Source: Haloarcula sp. CBA1127 (GTDB taxonomy: Archaea > Halobacteriota > Halobacteria > Halobacteriales > Haloarculaceae). Taken from it: a DNA stretch of 64,000 nt. Position numbers and translations under genes: made by a program. This document shows, piece by piece, positions 37,826 through 60,066 of the stretch (positions are counted from its first letter, which is position 1; each line of letters begins with the position of its first letter). The DNA is taken from NCBI RefSeq assembly GCF_001485575.1, contig NZ_BCNB01000006.1, positions 1,364,001-1,428,000 of the forward strand, given 5' to 3'. Below the pieces are notes generated by a model. The model saw nothing but the letters and a program-made list of their open reading frames with translations, had not been told where the DNA came from and did not search any database.

Positions 37826-38476
37826 CTACGGCACAGTTCCACACAGCAGGCCGAGAAACCCCCCGGCGAAGGTCTCGTACCGTCTGTCCACCGTCCGCTC
37901 GGTGAGTCGCTCGCGGGCCGCCCGCACCCGCCGCTCGAACGCGCTGGCGTGTGACTGTCTGGATAGCCGCGTCCCCGGCGCGGACAGACGGACGAACCCC
38001 TCGAACGCAAGGTTCAGTGGCGCGGCGATGGCGCTGGGACTCCGCTGGAAGTTCAGCAGGGCGACACGGCCGCCGGAGGCGACACTGTCACACCACGCGT
38101 CGACCGCCGCTGCAGGGTCCTCGAAGATGCCAGCGACGAACGTCGCCAGGACGGCATCGGCCGCTCGAACTGGCGGGCGAGCGGCGTCGGCCTGCACGTA
38201 GTGTACGGCTCCGCCGGTTCTGGCGGGTCGGTCGCGTGCGCGGTCGAGCATCCCTCGTGTCACGTCGATACCGACGACTTGACCCGACGGGCCGACTCGC
38301 TCGCGGAGCGCCGGCACATTTGCGCCAGTGCCACAGCCCATCTCGACGACGGTGTCGCCGGGTGCAAGCGACAGCGAGTCCGCCGTTCGGTCGCGCCAGG
38401 ACGCCACGCCGGGCGCATTCGCGACCCAGTCGTACACCCGCGCCCACCGGCCGTAGAACGATTGCGCGTCGGTCAC
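37826..38476 (-). CDS. class I SAM-dependent methyltransferase
   Basis: 216 residues starting with GTG. Motif I is VVEMGCGTGANVPALRERVG, followed by VVGIDVTRGMLDRARDRP and YVQADAARPPV, a UbiE/arsenite methyltransferase-like arrangement. Substrate is not known. The GTG overlaps the stop of the upstream ThiR-like regulator by four bases, so the two are translationally coupled and share the operon that begins at dcd. Could modify a lipid or quinone; no thiamine link is visible beyond context. Confidence 0.88.
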   Translation of the reverse strand: MTDAQSFYGRWARVYDWVANAPGVASWRDRTADSLSLAPGDTVVEMGCGTGANVPALRERVGPSGQVVGIDVTRGMLDRARDRPARTGGAVHYVQADAARPPVRAADAVLATFVAGIFEDPAAAVDAWCDSVASGGRVALLNFQRSPSAIAAPLNLAFEGFVRLSAPGTRLSRQSHASAFERRVRAARERLTERTVDRRYETFAGGFLGLLCGTVP

Positions 38477-39369
38477 AGAATTTCGCGTGCCGTTTCAGCG
38501 ACCGACACAGCGTCGTCCCCGAGCAGGTACACCACCGGCTCGATCCCCATCGCGCCGGTGTGGTAGAGCACGTCAGCCGCCGGGTTGTCGGCCAGCGCGG
38601 CCGCGACGGCCGGCTCGACGCTGTCCTCGGCGTCGAACTCGACCACGGTCCGACCGGCATCTCGAAGCGCGGTCACGACGCCGTCGTCGTACCGGACGTT
38701 TAGCACCGCGCGGGCGTCGCTCCCGGCGGCCCGCGCCGCAAGCAGCAGCGTCGCGACGTGCTCGCTGACGCCGAACTCCGGGTCCGCCGGAATCGTTGCC
38801 CGTCCTTTCACGTCGAGAATCCGCCCCGGGACGGCGGCCACGTCCTCGATGCTGTCGGCCTCGGGGAGACACTGAACGAGGTTCGACCCCACCGCCGGAA
38901 TAAGCGTCGCGAACCCGCTGGTGTTTTCCAGCACGCTGAGTCCGCGCCGAACCGATGCGAGCGTCCGCTCGGCCGACCGGAGCTGTGAGTCCGGGTCATG
39001 AACGGCGAACTCGTCGTCGTAGTCGCCCAGCTCCGGGACTGCCTCCTCGTGTATCTGTGCCAGCACGCCGCCCTGTTCGAGTTCGCGGATGAACACCTCT
39101 GTCTCGACCAGCGCCTGAACGGAACTCATATCGCCATCGGCCAGCCCGTCAGCCAACCGCTCAACGAGTTCCTCCAGCCCGCGATGGGCCAGCAGGTCGT
39201 CGTGGCGCGCCACGTCGCCGTGGACGTACTTCGAGACCGCGCTCTGGCTGATACCGAGCAGGTCGGCGACCTCGGACTGGGTCAGCCCGCGCTCTCTGAG
39301 GGCGTCGGCCAGCAGCGAGCGAAACGTCGGCAGGAAGTCGTCGACGACGATTTCCTCGATGAATCGCAC
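38473..39369 (-). CDS. thiR: ThiR-like regulator: HTH + ThiN thiamine-phosphate-binding domain
   Basis: 298 residues starting with GTG. N-terminal XRE-type HTH (LTQSEVADLLGISQSAVSKY, about 28-48), a central helical linker, then ThiN domain (ALVETEVFIREL... to CLPEADSIEDVAAVPGRIL, VLNVRYDDGVVTAL, GAMGIEPVVYLLG). This is the architecture of archaeal ThiR, which senses thiamine phosphate and represses thiamine genes. Its start overlaps the TAG of the 21-codon ORF by one base, and its TGA overlaps the methyltransferase GTG by four bases. It is the more distant of two ThiR-like genes here, so its regulon may differ. Confidence 0.87.
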   Translation of the reverse strand: MRFIEEIVVDDFLPTFRSLLADALRERGLTQSEVADLLGISQSAVSKYVHGDVARHDDLLAHRGLEELVERLADGLADGDMSSVQALVETEVFIRELEQGGVLAQIHEEAVPELGDYDDEFAVHDPDSQLRSAERTLASVRRGLSVLENTSGFATLIPAVGSNLVQCLPEADSIEDVAAVPGRILDVKGRATIPADPEFGVSEHVATLLLAARAAGSDARAVLNVRYDDGVVTALRDAGRTVVEFDAEDSVEPAVAAALADNPAADVLYHTGAMGIEPVVYLLGDDAVSVAETAREIL

Positions 39370-39434
39370 TATTGGTCGCCTCCGAACTCAATCTCGTTTC
39401 TCACCGATACCGTGATGCCACGCGTTGCGGGCAT
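39369..39434 (-). CDS. possible 21-residue ORF linking dcd and thiR-like gene
   Basis: The ORF encodes [20 protein letters not shown] plus a final Q. Its ATG overlaps the dcd stop (TGATG) and its TAG overlaps the GTG of the ThiR-like gene (TAGTG), so it could carry ribosomes from dcd to the regulator. Its last seven residues, EFGGDQ and the preceding charged residue, repeat the end of dcd. The alternative reading is that it is a remnant of a duplicated dcd 3' end. Real translation is not shown. Confidence 0.4.
   Translation of the reverse strand: MPATRGITVSVRNEIEFGGDQ
39373..39390 (-). repeat. downstream copy of dcd 3' end
   Basis: Minus-strand GAGTTCGGAGGCGACCAA repeats GAGTTCGGAGGCGATCAG at the end of dcd (39438-39455) with an offset of 65 bases. 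Both encode EFGGDQ and are followed by a stop; the two codon differences are synonymous and the stops differ (TAG versus TGA). Confidence 0.65.
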
Positions 39435-39436
39435 CA
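39412..39436. repeat. 8-bp perfect inverted repeat at the dcd stop
   Basis: GTGATGCC at 39412-39419 and GGCATCAC at 39429-39436 flank a 9-base spacer. The element covers the dcd stop codon and the start of the 21-codon ORF, so it could form an mRNA hairpin hiding that start, or be a trace of an inserted element between the two dcd 3' copies. Confidence 0.6.
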
Positions 39437-40021
39437 CTGATCGCCTCCGAACTCGCGGTCTCCCTGTATCTTGCTCGCCTGCGGCCCGGACTGGCCCTGA
39501 TACTTCGAGCCGCGCTCGGCCCCGTACGGGCGGTCGGCGGGGGTCTTGAGTTCCGTGAACGTGAGCTGTGAGATCCGCATTCCGGGTGTGAGCGCGACGG
39601 GCGCGGTGCCGAGGTTCGACAGTTCGAGCGTGATCTGGCCCTCGTACCCGGGGTCACACAGGCCGGCCGTCGCGTGGACCACGATTGCCAGGCGGCCCAG
39701 CGACGAGCGGCCTTCGACGTGGGCGATGAGGTCGTTGGGGATGGCGACGCGCTCGTGGGTCGTCCCCAGCACGAAGTCGCCGGGATGGAGGATGAACTCC
39801 CCACCCTCCTCAATGACCGTTTCCTCAACGTAGTCGGAGACTTCGTCCTCGGAGTTCGGGTGGATACAGGGGATGTTGGCGTGCTGGAACTCCAAAAACT
39901 CATGTCCGAGGCGGAGGTCGACGCTGGCGGGCTGAATCTGGATGTCCGGGTCGTCGAGCGGTTCGACGACGAGGTCACCCTGCTCCAGCCGTCGGAGAAT
40001 ATCCGCATCTGAGAGTATCAT
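39434..40021 (-). CDS. dcd: dCTP deaminase
   Basis: 195 residues; deaminates dCTP to dUTP for thymidylate synthesis. Signature segments: [70 protein letters not shown], and the C-terminal [12 protein letters not shown]. Normal family length. Promoter would lie in the 113-base gap before the YIP1 gene end. It heads a tight operon: 21-codon ORF, ThiR-like gene, methyltransferase. Its 3' end is duplicated 65 bases downstream. Confidence 0.96.
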
Positions 40022-55710: not shown

Positions 55711-57963
55711 TTACTCTTGCTGTGCGTCGACGACGGCAACGCCCGCAAGGTTCACGATGTCCTTGACCTCGTCACCACGCTGGAGAACGTGGACCGGCTT
55801 GTCCATGCCGACGAGCATCGGTCCGATGGCCTCAGCGCCGCCCAGCCGCTGAAGGAGCTTGTAGCCGATGTTCCCGGCTTCGAGGTTGGGGAACACGAGG
55901 ACGTTCGCGGGGTCGTCGAGTTCGGAGAACTCGTAGGTGTCTTGCAGGATGTCCTCGACGACAGCGGTGTCGGCCTGCATCTCGCCGTCGACCGGGAAGT
56001 CGACGCGGTCGTCGTCCTGCAGACGGGAGACCGCCCGACGGATCTTCTTGGTCCCGGGGTTGTCGACGCTGCCGAAGTTCGAGTACGACAGCATCGCCGC
56101 CCGCGGCTCGACGTTGAACCGACGGGCCAGTTCCCCGGTGTGACGGGTGACCTCCTCCAGCACGTCCGTATCGGGGTCCTGATTAACGGTGGTGTCCGCA
56201 CAGAAGATGACACGGTTCTTGAACGTCAGCATGTACACCCCGGCCGCGTAGTCGGCGTCGTCGGCCGTGCCGATGACCTGCAGCGGCGGGCGCAGGGCGG
56301 AGGGATAGTGGTGGGTCAGGCCGGTCAGCATCGCGTCGGCGTCGCCCATCTCGACCATCACACTGCCGAGGTAGTTGCCGTCCCGAATGAGTTCGTCGGC
56401 CTCGCGGCGGGTAATGCCTTTCCGCCGGCGGAGTTCGTACAGTCGGTCGGCGTAGTCGGCCACGTCGGCTGTCTCGGGGTCGACGACGACGGGGTCGAAC
56501 TCCAGCCCGAACTTCCGGCGCGTGGACTCGATTCGGTCGGCGTCACCGATGAGGACCGGCTCGGCGATGCCCTGTTCGACCAGCTGGTAGGCCGCGCGGA
56601 TCATCTTCTCGTCGTGGCCCTCGGCGAGCACGACCCGCTGGGGGTCGCTCTTGGCCTTGTTGAGCACGACGCGCATCATCTCGCGGGACTTGCCCAGCCG
56701 CGCTTCGAGTTCCTCGACGTAGGCCTCCGTATCGATCTCCGTCCGTGCTGCGCCGCTCTCGATGGCGGCCTCGGCGACCGCGGGGGTCACCTCGAACAGG
56801 ACCCGCGGGTCAAGCGGTTTCGGGATGATGTAGTCCGGGCCGAACTGCAGGGGCTGGTCGCCGTAGGCTTTGACGACCTCGTCGGGAACGTCCTGCCTTG
56901 CGAGATCGGCCAGCGCGCGGGCCGCTGCAACCTTCATCTCCTCGTTGATCTCGGTCGCCCGCACGTCGAGCGCGCCACGGAAGATGAACGGGAACCCGAG
57001 GACGTTGTTGACCTGATTCGGGTAGTCCGAGCGGCCGGTCGCCATGATGACCGTGTCGTCGCGGGCGGCCTTGGCCGACTCGTAGCCGATCTCCGGGTCC
57101 GGGTTCGCCATCGCGAAGATGATGGGGTCGCTGGCCATCGACCGCACCATCTCCTGATCGACGATGCCGCCGACGGAGAGCCCGACGAACACGTCGGCCC
57201 CGTCCATTGCGTCGGCGAGGTCACCCTCCGGGATGTCGCGTGCGAACTCCTGTTTGAACCGGTTGAGTTCCTCGTGCGTCGCTCGTTCCTCGGTGATGAT
57301 ACCCGAAGAGTCACACATCGTGATGTTGTCCTTCGAGACGCCAAGGGAGACGTAGAACTTCGCGGATGCAATCGCGGACGCTCCGGCCCCGGAGAAGACG
57401 ACCTCCAGGTCCGCCAGTTCCTTGTCGGCGATGTCGGCCGCGTTGACCAGCGCCGCGCCGGAGATGATCGCGGTCCCGTGTTGGTCATCGTGGAACACCG
57501 GGATGTCGAGTTTCTCGCTGAGCCGGCGCTCGACCTCGAAACACTCTGGGGCGGCGATATCTTCGAGATTGATGCCGCCGAAGGTCGGCTCCATCGCCTC
57601 TACCGTCTGTATCATGGCGTCGGCGTTGTCCGTGTCCAGCTCCACGTCGAACACGTCGATGTCGGCAAACCGCTTGAACAGCACGCCCTTTCCTTCCATG
57701 ACCGGCTTCCCGGCTTCCGGACCGATGTCGCCGAGGCCGAGCACGGCGGACCCGTCGGAGACGACGCCCACGAGGTTCCCTTTCGCGGTGTACTCGAAGG
57801 CCTTCTCAGGGTCTTTGTCGATCTCCTCACACGGCGCGGCCACGCCGGGCGAGTAGGCTAGCGAGAGGTCCCGCTGTGTGTTCGTCGGCTTTGTCGTCGC
57901 AATCTCTATCTTCCCCGGCGGCTTGCTCCGGTGATACTCCAGTGCGTCCTCGTCAAGTCCCAT
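55711..57963 (-). CDS. maeB: NADP-malic enzyme with phosphate acetyltransferase-like C-terminal domain
   Basis: 750 residues. Malic enzyme half (residues 1 to about 420): [40 protein letters not shown]-like region, [20 protein letters not shown] and the Rossmann [14 protein letters not shown]-like half (about 430-750): [52 protein letters not shown], and [20 protein letters not shown]. Oxidatively decarboxylates malate to pyruvate; the PTA domain is usually regulatory. It may link with PEP synthase in this genome. Promoter TTTTTTACAG lies about 26 bases before the ATG. Confidence 0.95.
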
Positions 57964-58134
57964 ACCCGGATGTCGAACCCAACTGTAAAAAAGACAAGTT
58001 TACCGTCAATGGACGAGCGGTACAACGACGGCTGTCGAATGGCGGCTTGTTGCAGCGGTTTTTGCCCCGGTTGTGTCCCACCAATTGGAAAACAGCCGCC
58101 GCCGGGGACCTGCCCGATGGACTGGCCGCGGACC

Positions 58135-60066
58135 TCAGTTCGTGTTGGTGAGCTCGCCGACTCGGTCGGTCAGTTCGGTGACCGCATCTTCTTGTCTGTC
58201 GGTGGCCTTGACAATTTCCTTCGTTGCCGTTTCAGCCTCTTGGGCGTGGTTCTGTGCGTCTTCGACCATCGAAGTCACGTTCTCGATAGCGCTCGCCTGG
58301 TCGTCGTTGGCGTCGGCGACCTCTTGGATGCCCCTTGTCGCTTCCTCGACGGCGTCGGAAATCTCGTCCAGCGCATCCAGTGCGTCTGCGATCTCGGTCT
58401 CCGCACGCTCGACCTGTTCGTGGGAGGTTTCGACCATTTCGGCCGTCTCGGTTGCCTGATCCTGAATCGTGGTGATGCTCGTCGAGATCTCGGAGGCGTA
58501 CTCGCTCGTCTCGTTTGCGAGCGTCTTCACCTCGTCGGCCACGACAGCGAACCCGCTCCCGCTTTCGCCGGCCCTGGCCGCCTCGATGTTGGCGTTCAGC
58601 GCGAGCATATTCGTCTGCTCCGCCACGTCGGCGATTATCTCGACGATCTCGCTCACTTCGTCCATCTGGTCGTCGAGGTCTGTGACGGTGTCCACGAGGT
58701 CTTCGCTCGTCTCGGTGAGGCCATCGGTAACGTCCATGACCGCTTCACCGGCATTTGATCCGTCTTCCGCAGCCGCCTTCGCGCGCTGTGCTGCTGACGC
58801 CACTTCGCTCGACGTTGCGGCGACTTCCTCCATCCCGGCCCCGATGTCCTGAATATTGTCGGCCGCCTGGGTGAGGGAGTCGGTCTGTTCGGTAACCCGG
58901 CTCTCGACAGCCGCTGCGGACGAATTCGCCTGCTCGATAGTGGTCGCAAGTTGCTGTGCCTGTGCGTCCACTTGGTCCGCCAACTGCTCGACCTGTTCGG
59001 CCATGTCGTTGAGCGAACCAACGACCTCGTACAGCTGGTCGTCGACGTACTCGCCGCCGTCAGTCCGGTCGAACGACGCCCGGGCGTCGAGGCGGCCGTT
59101 TTTGAGTGCGGCCATGGTCGATTTGACTTCATCGACCAGACTCGTCACGGCCTCGTGGCGGTTGGCCTCGTCAGTTCGGTCCTGGACCATCTCGACGACC
59201 GCGATGAGTTCGCCGTCGCCGTCGTAAATCGGGGCAGCGCTGAACGAGATGTGGCGTTCGTTCCCGTGCTGGTCGGCCATCACGCTCGTATCGCGGTACA
59301 GCGTGAAATCCTCGTCTTCGACCTTCGGCACGTCGTACTCTGTGTGGGTGGTCTCCGGGGCATCGAGGACTTTGTCGGCGAGTGTCTTTCCGCGTCGGCC
59401 GTCCGGATAGAACGCCATACTCGCCATCTCCATCTCCTGTGCTTCGGCCTCGGAGACGCCGGTAAGGTTTTCTATCGAACTGTTCCAGCTGAGGATATCG
59501 CCGTTCGTATCCAGAACAAAGAGCGGCGTCCCGATATGCTGCAGTACGTCGTGGTAGTCGAACCCTTCGTTAGCGCCACTTTTAGCTGCAGAGCCGCTGA
59601 ACGCATCGACGCCGGCCTGGGAGACGGATCGTGTCGTTTCCAGTCCTTCGTGAAGCTCCGCCTCGACAGTGTCGATGGCGGCTTGGGCATCCGGGCCGAG
59701 TTCATCCCGAAGCTGCTCGAACGCACCTTCGACGAGCGATTCGGTGACGAAGCCCTGTGTTGCGACGAACTCACGTTGGCTGATCCCAGCGGTCTTGTAG
59801 TCGTCGATCAGCGCCTGGAGTTCGTCTGAGCCGAGTTCGAACTGCCGCTCAACGTGTTGTGTCCCAATCGCGGCCTTGTCTGGGTCCTCGAAGCAATTGT
59901 CGAGATGCGGTGAGTCCGGGTCAATGGCGTCGGTCAAAAAGCGAGTCCGTCCGTCACTCGCGACGAATCCGCCGTCCGCCCGCCGGGCCCCAGCGTCCGA
60001 AGAACGTGACCCCTGGCCGTAGATGTAGGTGCGGATCTGTTCGAACATAAGGTAGCTATGTTCCAT
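58135..60066 (-). CDS. soluble halobacterial transducer (methyl-accepting chemotaxis protein) with PAS
   Basis: About 643 residues with no membrane helix, so a cytoplasmic transducer. N-terminal 130 residues include DDYKTAGISQREFVATQGFV, reminiscent of the linker after a protoglobin in HemAT-like proteins but without a clear heme pocket. A PAS domain follows (DVLQHIGTPLFVLDTNGDIL, EYDVPKVEDEDFTLYRDTSV). The signalling tip EQTNMLALNANIEAARAGES and SGFAVVADEVKTLANETSEY is a perfect MCP match, which binds CheA/CheW. The start at 60066 is supported by AGGTG upstream; a second ATG at 60048 exists. Back to back with CtaA. Confidence 0.92.
   Translation of the reverse strand: MEHSYLMFEQIRTYIYGQGSRSSDAGARRADGGFVASDGRTRFLTDAIDPDSPHLDNCFEDPDKAAIGTQHVERQFELGSDELQALIDDYKTAGISQREFVATQGFVTESLVEGAFEQLRDELGPDAQAAIDTVEAELHEGLETTRSVSQAGVDAFSGSAAKSGANEGFDYHDVLQHIGTPLFVLDTNGDILSWNSSIENLTGVSEAEAQEMEMASMAFYPDGRRGKTLADKVLDAPETTHTEYDVPKVEDEDFTLYRDTSVMADQHGNERHISFSAAPIYDGDGELIAVVEMVQDRTDEANRHEAVTSLVDEVKSTMAALKNGRLDARASFDRTDGGEYVDDQLYEVVGSLNDMAEQVEQLADQVDAQAQQLATTIEQANSSAAAVESRVTEQTDSLTQAADNIQDIGAGMEEVAATSSEVASAAQRAKAAAEDGSNAGEAVMDVTDGLTETSEDLVDTVTDLDDQMDEVSEIVEIIADVAEQTNMLALNANIEAARAGESGSGFAVVADEVKTLANETSEYASEISTSITTIQDQATETAEMVETSHEQVERAETEIADALDALDEISDAVEEATRGIQEVADANDDQASAIENVTSMVEDAQNHAQEAETATKEIVKATDRQEDAVTELTDRVGELTNTN

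Follow-up and report, generated by a model that had tools for sequence, protein, structure and literature searches.

The dcd-thiR spacer of a Haloarcula genome is a unit of a locus-bound repeat and a probable translational relay

We conclude, from a comparison of sequences, that the segment lying between dcd and a thiR-like gene in a haloarchaeal genome is one unit of a locus-bound repeat that is found across the Haloarculaceae. The unit repeats the 3' end of dcd, and it probably works as a translational relay to thiR, passing ribosomes on through a mini-ORF. Behind this reading stand the repeat itself, its restriction to a single locus, the conservation of a chain of stop and start codons across it, the absence of selection on the encoded peptide and the compensation that is seen in the start codons. 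No description of a dcd-thiR repeat unit was found in the open-licence literature that we searched, and papers on ThiR in haloarchaea contained nothing concerning the dcd-thiR junction.

The locus lies in the window, that is, the whole stretch of 64,000 nucleotides that was analysed, which comes from contig C6 of genome G000, whose nearest named relatives are Haloarcula species. In it dcd, the thiR-like gene and a methyltransferase gene follow one another as a minus-strand run (Table 1, in which all coordinates are those of the window). The regulator has the architecture of a ThiR protein, with an N-terminal HTH domain (PF01381) and a C-terminal ThiN domain (PF10120) that both score above cut-off, and the best matches of the third gene are methyltransferase models, every one of them under its cut-off. 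The spacer between dcd and thiR is 65 nt long (TGATGCCCGCAACGCGTGGCATCACGGTATCGGTGAGAAACGAGATTGAGTTCGGAGGCGACCAA). A search of the mini-ORF against NCBIfam returned no family at E up to 0.01, and an Rfam search of 36-42 kb of the window gave no credible match and no TPP riboswitch. Successive reading frames overlap throughout: dcd and the mini-ORF through GTGA (-4) and TGATG, the mini-ORF and thiR by one base (-1, TAGTG), and thiR and the methyltransferase gene through a GTGA shared by the TGA of the former and the GTG of the latter (-4). All three junctions lie within the distance for termination-reinitiation, about -8 to +10 nt.

Table 1. Features of the dcd-thiR locus in the window.
Feature	Position	Strand	Remarks
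dcd, dCTP deaminase, 195 aa	39434..40021	-	ORF; TIGR02274 dCTP_deam 225 bits, cut-off 92.8; PF22769
dcd stop TGA	39436-39434	-	
Upstream coupling-module copy GAGTTCGGAGGCGATCAG (EFGGDQ)	39437..39454 (39454-39437)	-	End of dcd
Shine-Dalgarno motif GGAGG within upstream module copy	39448-39444	-	
TGATG, dcd stop overlapping mini-ORF ATG	39432..39436	-	
In-frame GTG upstream of mini-ORF ATG	39437-39435	-	Extends ORF to 22 codons
65-nt repeat unit (stop, hairpin, linker, coupling module)	39372..39436	-	Homologous 62-65-nt units in other Haloarculaceae
Putative relay mini-ORF, 21 codons (22 from GTG at 39437)	39369..39434	-	Stop TAG 39371-39369
Imperfect palindrome/hairpin GTGATGCC CGC AAC GCG T GGCATCAC	39412..39437	-	5' arm holds stop-start overlap
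Downstream coupling-module copy GAGTTCGGAGGCGACCAA (EFGGDQ)	39372..39389	-	Shine-Dalgarno motif GGAGG 39383-39379
thiR-like regulator, HTH + ThiN, 298 aa	38473..39369	-	PF10120 ThiN 178 bits; PF01381 HTH_3
thiR GTG start	39369-39367	-	1-nt overlap with mini-ORF stop
SAM-dependent methyltransferase gene, GTG start	37826..38476	-	Third gene of the putatively coupled run

The last 18 nt of dcd, encoding EFGGDQ, recur 65 nt downstream, as the sequence-only reading had proposed. The two copies (GAGTTCGGAGGCGATCAG and GAGTTCGGAGGCGACCAA) differ at two positions, both silent (GAT/GAC and CAG/CAA), and are followed by different stops, TGA after the upstream copy and TAG after the downstream one; the TAG shares its G with the GTG of thiR, and TGATG joins the dcd stop to the ATG of the 21-codon ORF. 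All of this stands as first described, as does the 8-bp inverted repeat GTGATGCC/GGCATCAC at 39437-39430 and 39419-39412, which is longer than was first noted in that it continues inward with CGC/GCG and, with one bulged T, forms an 11-bp stem. The recurrence exceeds what chance would give: within 800 kb of G000, only 3 of 702 called genes had a 15/18 match to their own last 18 nt at most 180 nt downstream, against none in a displaced control, and the whole genome holds GAGTTCGGAGGCGAYCARTGA, at up to two mismatches, at the two dcd-junction sites only. The proposal that the downstream copy is the ancestral dcd end is well illustrated elsewhere: in L117 the downstream copy (GGCGGGGATCAGTAG) matches the only dcd end that its sister L042 has, and the upstream copy is the GGAGGCGACCAA consensus. 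Readthrough of the dcd TGA as a source of EFGGDQ was rejected by reasoning, the 65-nt unit not being a multiple of three, and a frameshift at the dcd stop into the frame of the mini-ORF, which would extend Dcd but leave its C-terminus the same, is compatible with the sequence but made unnecessary by the stop-start overlap.

Two other gene ends on contig C6 of G000 are repeated nearby. One, encoding EKGEAE-stop at about 1085420 on the minus strand (region B, 57420-58281), has a second version of its last 18 nt, 15/18 identical, 72 nt downstream within a G+C-rich stretch; the other (172537-173157, region A) recurs about 156 nt downstream at 16/18, as part of a longer duplicated stretch.

In the mechanism that we propose, a ribosome ending dcd at its TGA would restart at the overlapping ATG or GTG, aided by the GGAGG in the last dcd codons, read 21 codons whose peptide would be immaterial, stop at the TAG beside the second GGAGG module and restart at the GTG of thiR. 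Units would be gained, lost and multiplied, with selection tolerating those changes that leave the stop-start chain unbroken. We infer both the reinitiation itself and the dependence of thiR translation on it. Reinitiation in Haloferax volcanii drops to about half at a distance of 13-14 nt and has almost vanished at 22-23 nt (PMC10666635), and since it is lost by about 20 nt, a gap of 65 nt should cut thiR off from dcd; the mini-ORF would restore the hand-over. For reinitiation in E. coli, no more of the upstream gene is needed than its final 15 nt (PMC10666635). The TeRe gene pairs of H. volcanii and E. coli (PMC6728339, PMC10666635) likewise have ATGA or TGATG overlaps, a Shine-Dalgarno motif in the end of the upstream gene and a strong distance limit, whereas the dcd junctions chain several overlaps, by way of tiny ORFs, across distances beyond that limit.

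Junctions downstream of dcd were gathered by scanning named genomes and genomes of the same family, and about 160 were compared: 157 after identical ones had been dropped, and four more, added later, in which an insert splits the dcd match. A relative carries between zero and five units, usually of 56-74 nt, each consisting of a 5' part that is often a hairpin, followed by a linker and by a Shine-Dalgarno/stop-start module that copies the end of dcd. Typically, dcd and thiR in the Haloarculaceae are joined by direct overlap (TAGTG, TAGATG, ATGA or TGATG), by one to five units, the majority with a GAGTTCGGAGGCGACCAA-type module at their end, or by a shorter mini-ORF. The units stand in tandem and vary in copy number, and those of L030, L112 and L217 are near-identical or identical to one another. 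Modules are spaced by 32, 56, 62, 65, 68, 71, 74 or 119 nt; each of these spacings is 2 mod 3, the length that lets an ORF begun one base before the stop (ATGA or GTGA) end at the next module. Exceptions are spacings of 75 nt in Halorientalis (L067, L078, L103), 66 nt in L084 and 63 nt in L123 and L217-L219. Most of them are the Halorientalis cases, in which thiR either comes with a TATA-like element of its own or was not located next to dcd; with the 63-nt units of L217, L218 and L219 (0 mod 3), longer ORFs span two or three units and end adjoining the thiR start.

Across the Halorientalis group (L067, L078, L103, L122, L130), tandem units of 74-75 nt and of the same general build follow dcd, and thiR has a TATA-like element of its own or was not found in the stretch fetched. 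The metagenome bin QS_1_68_17 (L084) has its 66-nt spacing downstream of dcd, with thiR 1 kb off and the chain broken.

A junction was scored as bridged when consecutive ORFs formed a chain in which each start lay -4 to +8 nt from the previous stop, with the same limits at the thiR start; only dcd-thiR distances above 20 nt were counted, and the null was given by dinucleotide shuffles of the gap. By this measure 58 of 76 gapped junctions were bridged against 16.6 expected, in a test that takes genomes as independent and whose null partly favours gap lengths suited to the thiR start; keeping one junction per distinct distance, which only partly corrects for shared ancestry, left 44/58 bridged (11.7 expected). 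Where no promoter-like element precedes thiR, the chain was present in 56 of 59 junctions (15.4 expected; maximum 28 in 200,000 draws), and where one does, in 2/17 (1.1 expected), as by chance, the promoter-like class having been assigned post hoc as AGTTAT or TTTTTATG about 30-37 nt before thiR, within 60 nt. This class is made up mostly of Natrialbales-type genomes and Halorientalis. In Natrialbales-type loci such as L066, L074, L080 and L101, the thiR ATG follows, at about 33-37 nt, a conserved ACAAGTTATYCC-like element that is probably thiR's own promoter. Three junctions without a promoter-like element went unbridged: with 9 and 15 nt left over beyond the stop of their final mini-ORF, L117 and L119 fall outside the limits, and L135 genuinely lacks a bridge. 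Among co-directed gaps at other places in 800 kb of G000, 14 of 225 were bridged, against 12.3 for shifted targets, and the chain pattern is therefore specific to the dcd-thiR junction rather than general to gaps in this genome. The sequence-only reading had allowed that coupling was kept, or that it happened to survive an insertion. It was retained far beyond chance, which argues that its survival was no mere accident.

At the level of sequence, the start codons compensate for the wobble base of the glutamine codon. A module ending in CAA and followed by TGA gives ATGA unaided, whereas a CAG end gives GTGA only; TGATG, which restores an ATG, was present in 13/25 CAG cases and in 1/44 CAA cases (Fisher p = 1.5e-6, with related genomes not independent). 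The repeated dcd end also places GGAGG, the Shine-Dalgarno motif, just ahead of each start codon. Among mini-ORF starts in chains, 56 of 87 have a Shine-Dalgarno match of at least 5 nt, most commonly at a spacing of 6 nt, and GGAGG occurs in the dcd end at 55/106 coupled junctions compared with 11/51 uncoupled ones (p = 3e-4).

It is unlikely that the junction is a neutral scar, left by a tandem duplication or by an insertion at the end of dcd, whose frame is open by chance and behind which thiR is initiated independently. Units do come and go, their presence changing at least 22 times over 123 junctions on the tree, and arrays follow dcd even when thiR is decoupled from it or did not turn up nearby, from which it follows that units can multiply without thiR coupling and are not maintained for that coupling alone. 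Yet the chain stands far above shuffles only where thiR has no promoter-like element of its own, unit lengths change in steps of three, and the wobble base and TGATG compensate for one another, all of which speaks against a scar of this kind.

Selection on the peptide was assessed in 18 type A and 15 type B units. Outside the tail, pN/pS is 1.12 in type A and 1.20 in type B, with divergence equal at all codon positions, so that neither type shows purifying selection on the body of the mini-ORF peptide; in support of the sequence-only reading, no conserved protein gene is seen in the mini-ORF. By comparison, dcd in type A genomes has a pN of 0.06 and a pS of 0.45 over its last 60 codons. In the EFGGDQ tail pN/pS is 0.10 (type A) and 0.15 (type B), a low value that is expected from the copying of the dcd end and from its Shine-Dalgarno role. 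That the unit encodes a functional microprotein, about 21 aa long and with EFGGDQ at its end, is highly improbable: similar peptides (SARN..EFGGDQ) do occur in several genera and share the constrained tail, but the body evolves as if free of constraint, bridging ORFs run from 5 to 66 codons with unrelated sequences, and the unit is missing from close relatives. A neutral body within an intact chain means that the reading frame is conserved but not its peptide, and it is this apparent retention of translation without its product that points to a relay of termination and reinitiation.

The hairpin is probably real in type A units, where 92.5% of cells are paired over 12 relatives and two pairs have changed on both sides, compared with 12-56% in slid control pairings. 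The stop-start overlap lies within its 5' arm, and the hairpin may thereby impede independent initiation. A stable RNA fold as the main feature was rejected, folding of 47 units being hardly more stable than that of shuffles (mean z -0.5). We consider it very unlikely that an RNA or DNA hairpin is itself the selected element, serving dcd 3' end formation, attenuation or protein binding, with the frame secondary. The pairing in type A units agrees with such a role, and hairpins are also found in arrays without a coupled thiR; on the other hand, the gain in stability over shuffles is slight, sequence and size vary, some units have no hairpin, no Rfam family matches, and the 2 mod 3 rule would go unexplained.

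The module motif was found at the dcd locus only in 32 genomes of the genus, apart from one stray and weaker match (two mismatches) in G014; the linker motif occurs at dcd only in the genus genomes, and the window region matches only itself in G000. As the module motif is confined to dcd, the unit is not a dispersed element. A mobile or REP-like element was rejected, the module and linker motifs being absent elsewhere from the 32 genomes bar that one match. Type A units with hairpin and linker are present in L015, L011 and L010, the three outermost Haloarcula of the window's clade, and the 65-nt unit type also occurs in other genera (L022, L026, L028, L043, L112); the type predates the genus Haloarcula. 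The suggestion of an insertion scar can therefore be upheld only in part: relatives in which dcd overlaps thiR directly by TAGTG, with no insert, do exist (L005, L006, L014), but the idea that a new ORF arose in G000 from a local scar is not supported, since a homologous hairpin and linker occur in outermost Haloarcula and other genera.

On the dcd-thiR tree, unit-free species are nested within unit-bearing Haloarcula, and the clean TAGTG junctions are better explained either by loss via the direct repeats or by a history of loss with horizontal regain than as the ancestral state. For the window's clade, equal-cost parsimony gives about five losses or one loss and three regains, with no clear separation. 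Independent origin of the same unit body sequence is unlikely, so that regain would mean horizontal transfer. The 18-nt direct repeat would be an obvious substrate for recombinational loss, and recombination may be the route of gain and loss alike.

The closest known kind, likened by description and architecture, is the mycobacterial MIRU. MIRUs lie at many genomic loci. Like the dcd unit, they are short, lie between co-directed genes, carry a mini-ORF that overlaps the flanking stop and start, and form tandem arrays whose copy number varies between genomes (zero to five at dcd). In contrast, the dcd unit is restricted to a single locus rather than dispersed, is archaeal, ends in a copy of the host gene's last codons and varies widely in sequence and length. 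In the passage that PMC12548453 devotes to them (citing Supply et al. 1997), MIRUs are short repeats that separate co-directed genes and whose mini-ORF is coupled to the gene next to it through a stop-start overlap at -4 spacing; they are described there as apparently mobile, inserting at start codons, and their coupling is said to limit the effect of the insertion on expression. A ribosome-delivering short upstream ORF (PMC12548453) likewise serves the translation of the next gene and not its own peptide, whereas the dcd mini-ORF lies inside an operon, between two genes, and in tandem units.

At this one junction there are dozens of insertions and changes of length, almost all of which keep the chain save where thiR has its own promoter-like element, so that the locus amounts to a natural experiment on stop-start dependence in archaea. 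It lets evolution test the claim from laboratory work that scanning by haloarchaeal ribosomes does not extend past about 20 nt, and some conserved intergenic small ORFs may serve solely to hand the ribosome on. More tentatively, and with considerable doubt, the array could be a reinitiation ladder in which each unit adds one more step and copy number sets the ThiR:Dcd ratio; if so, expansion and contraction of the repeat would tune a vitamin regulator while leaving promoter and protein untouched.

A separate observation concerns dcd itself. In L217:26-2047 (G037) several hundred inserted residues seem to break up the gene after about residue 119, and the same interruption seems to be present in G032, G036, G069, G103, G111, G136 and G138. 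The domain scan, which covered L217, placed Intein_splicing, LAGLIDADG_3 and HTH domains of the insert in one open frame.
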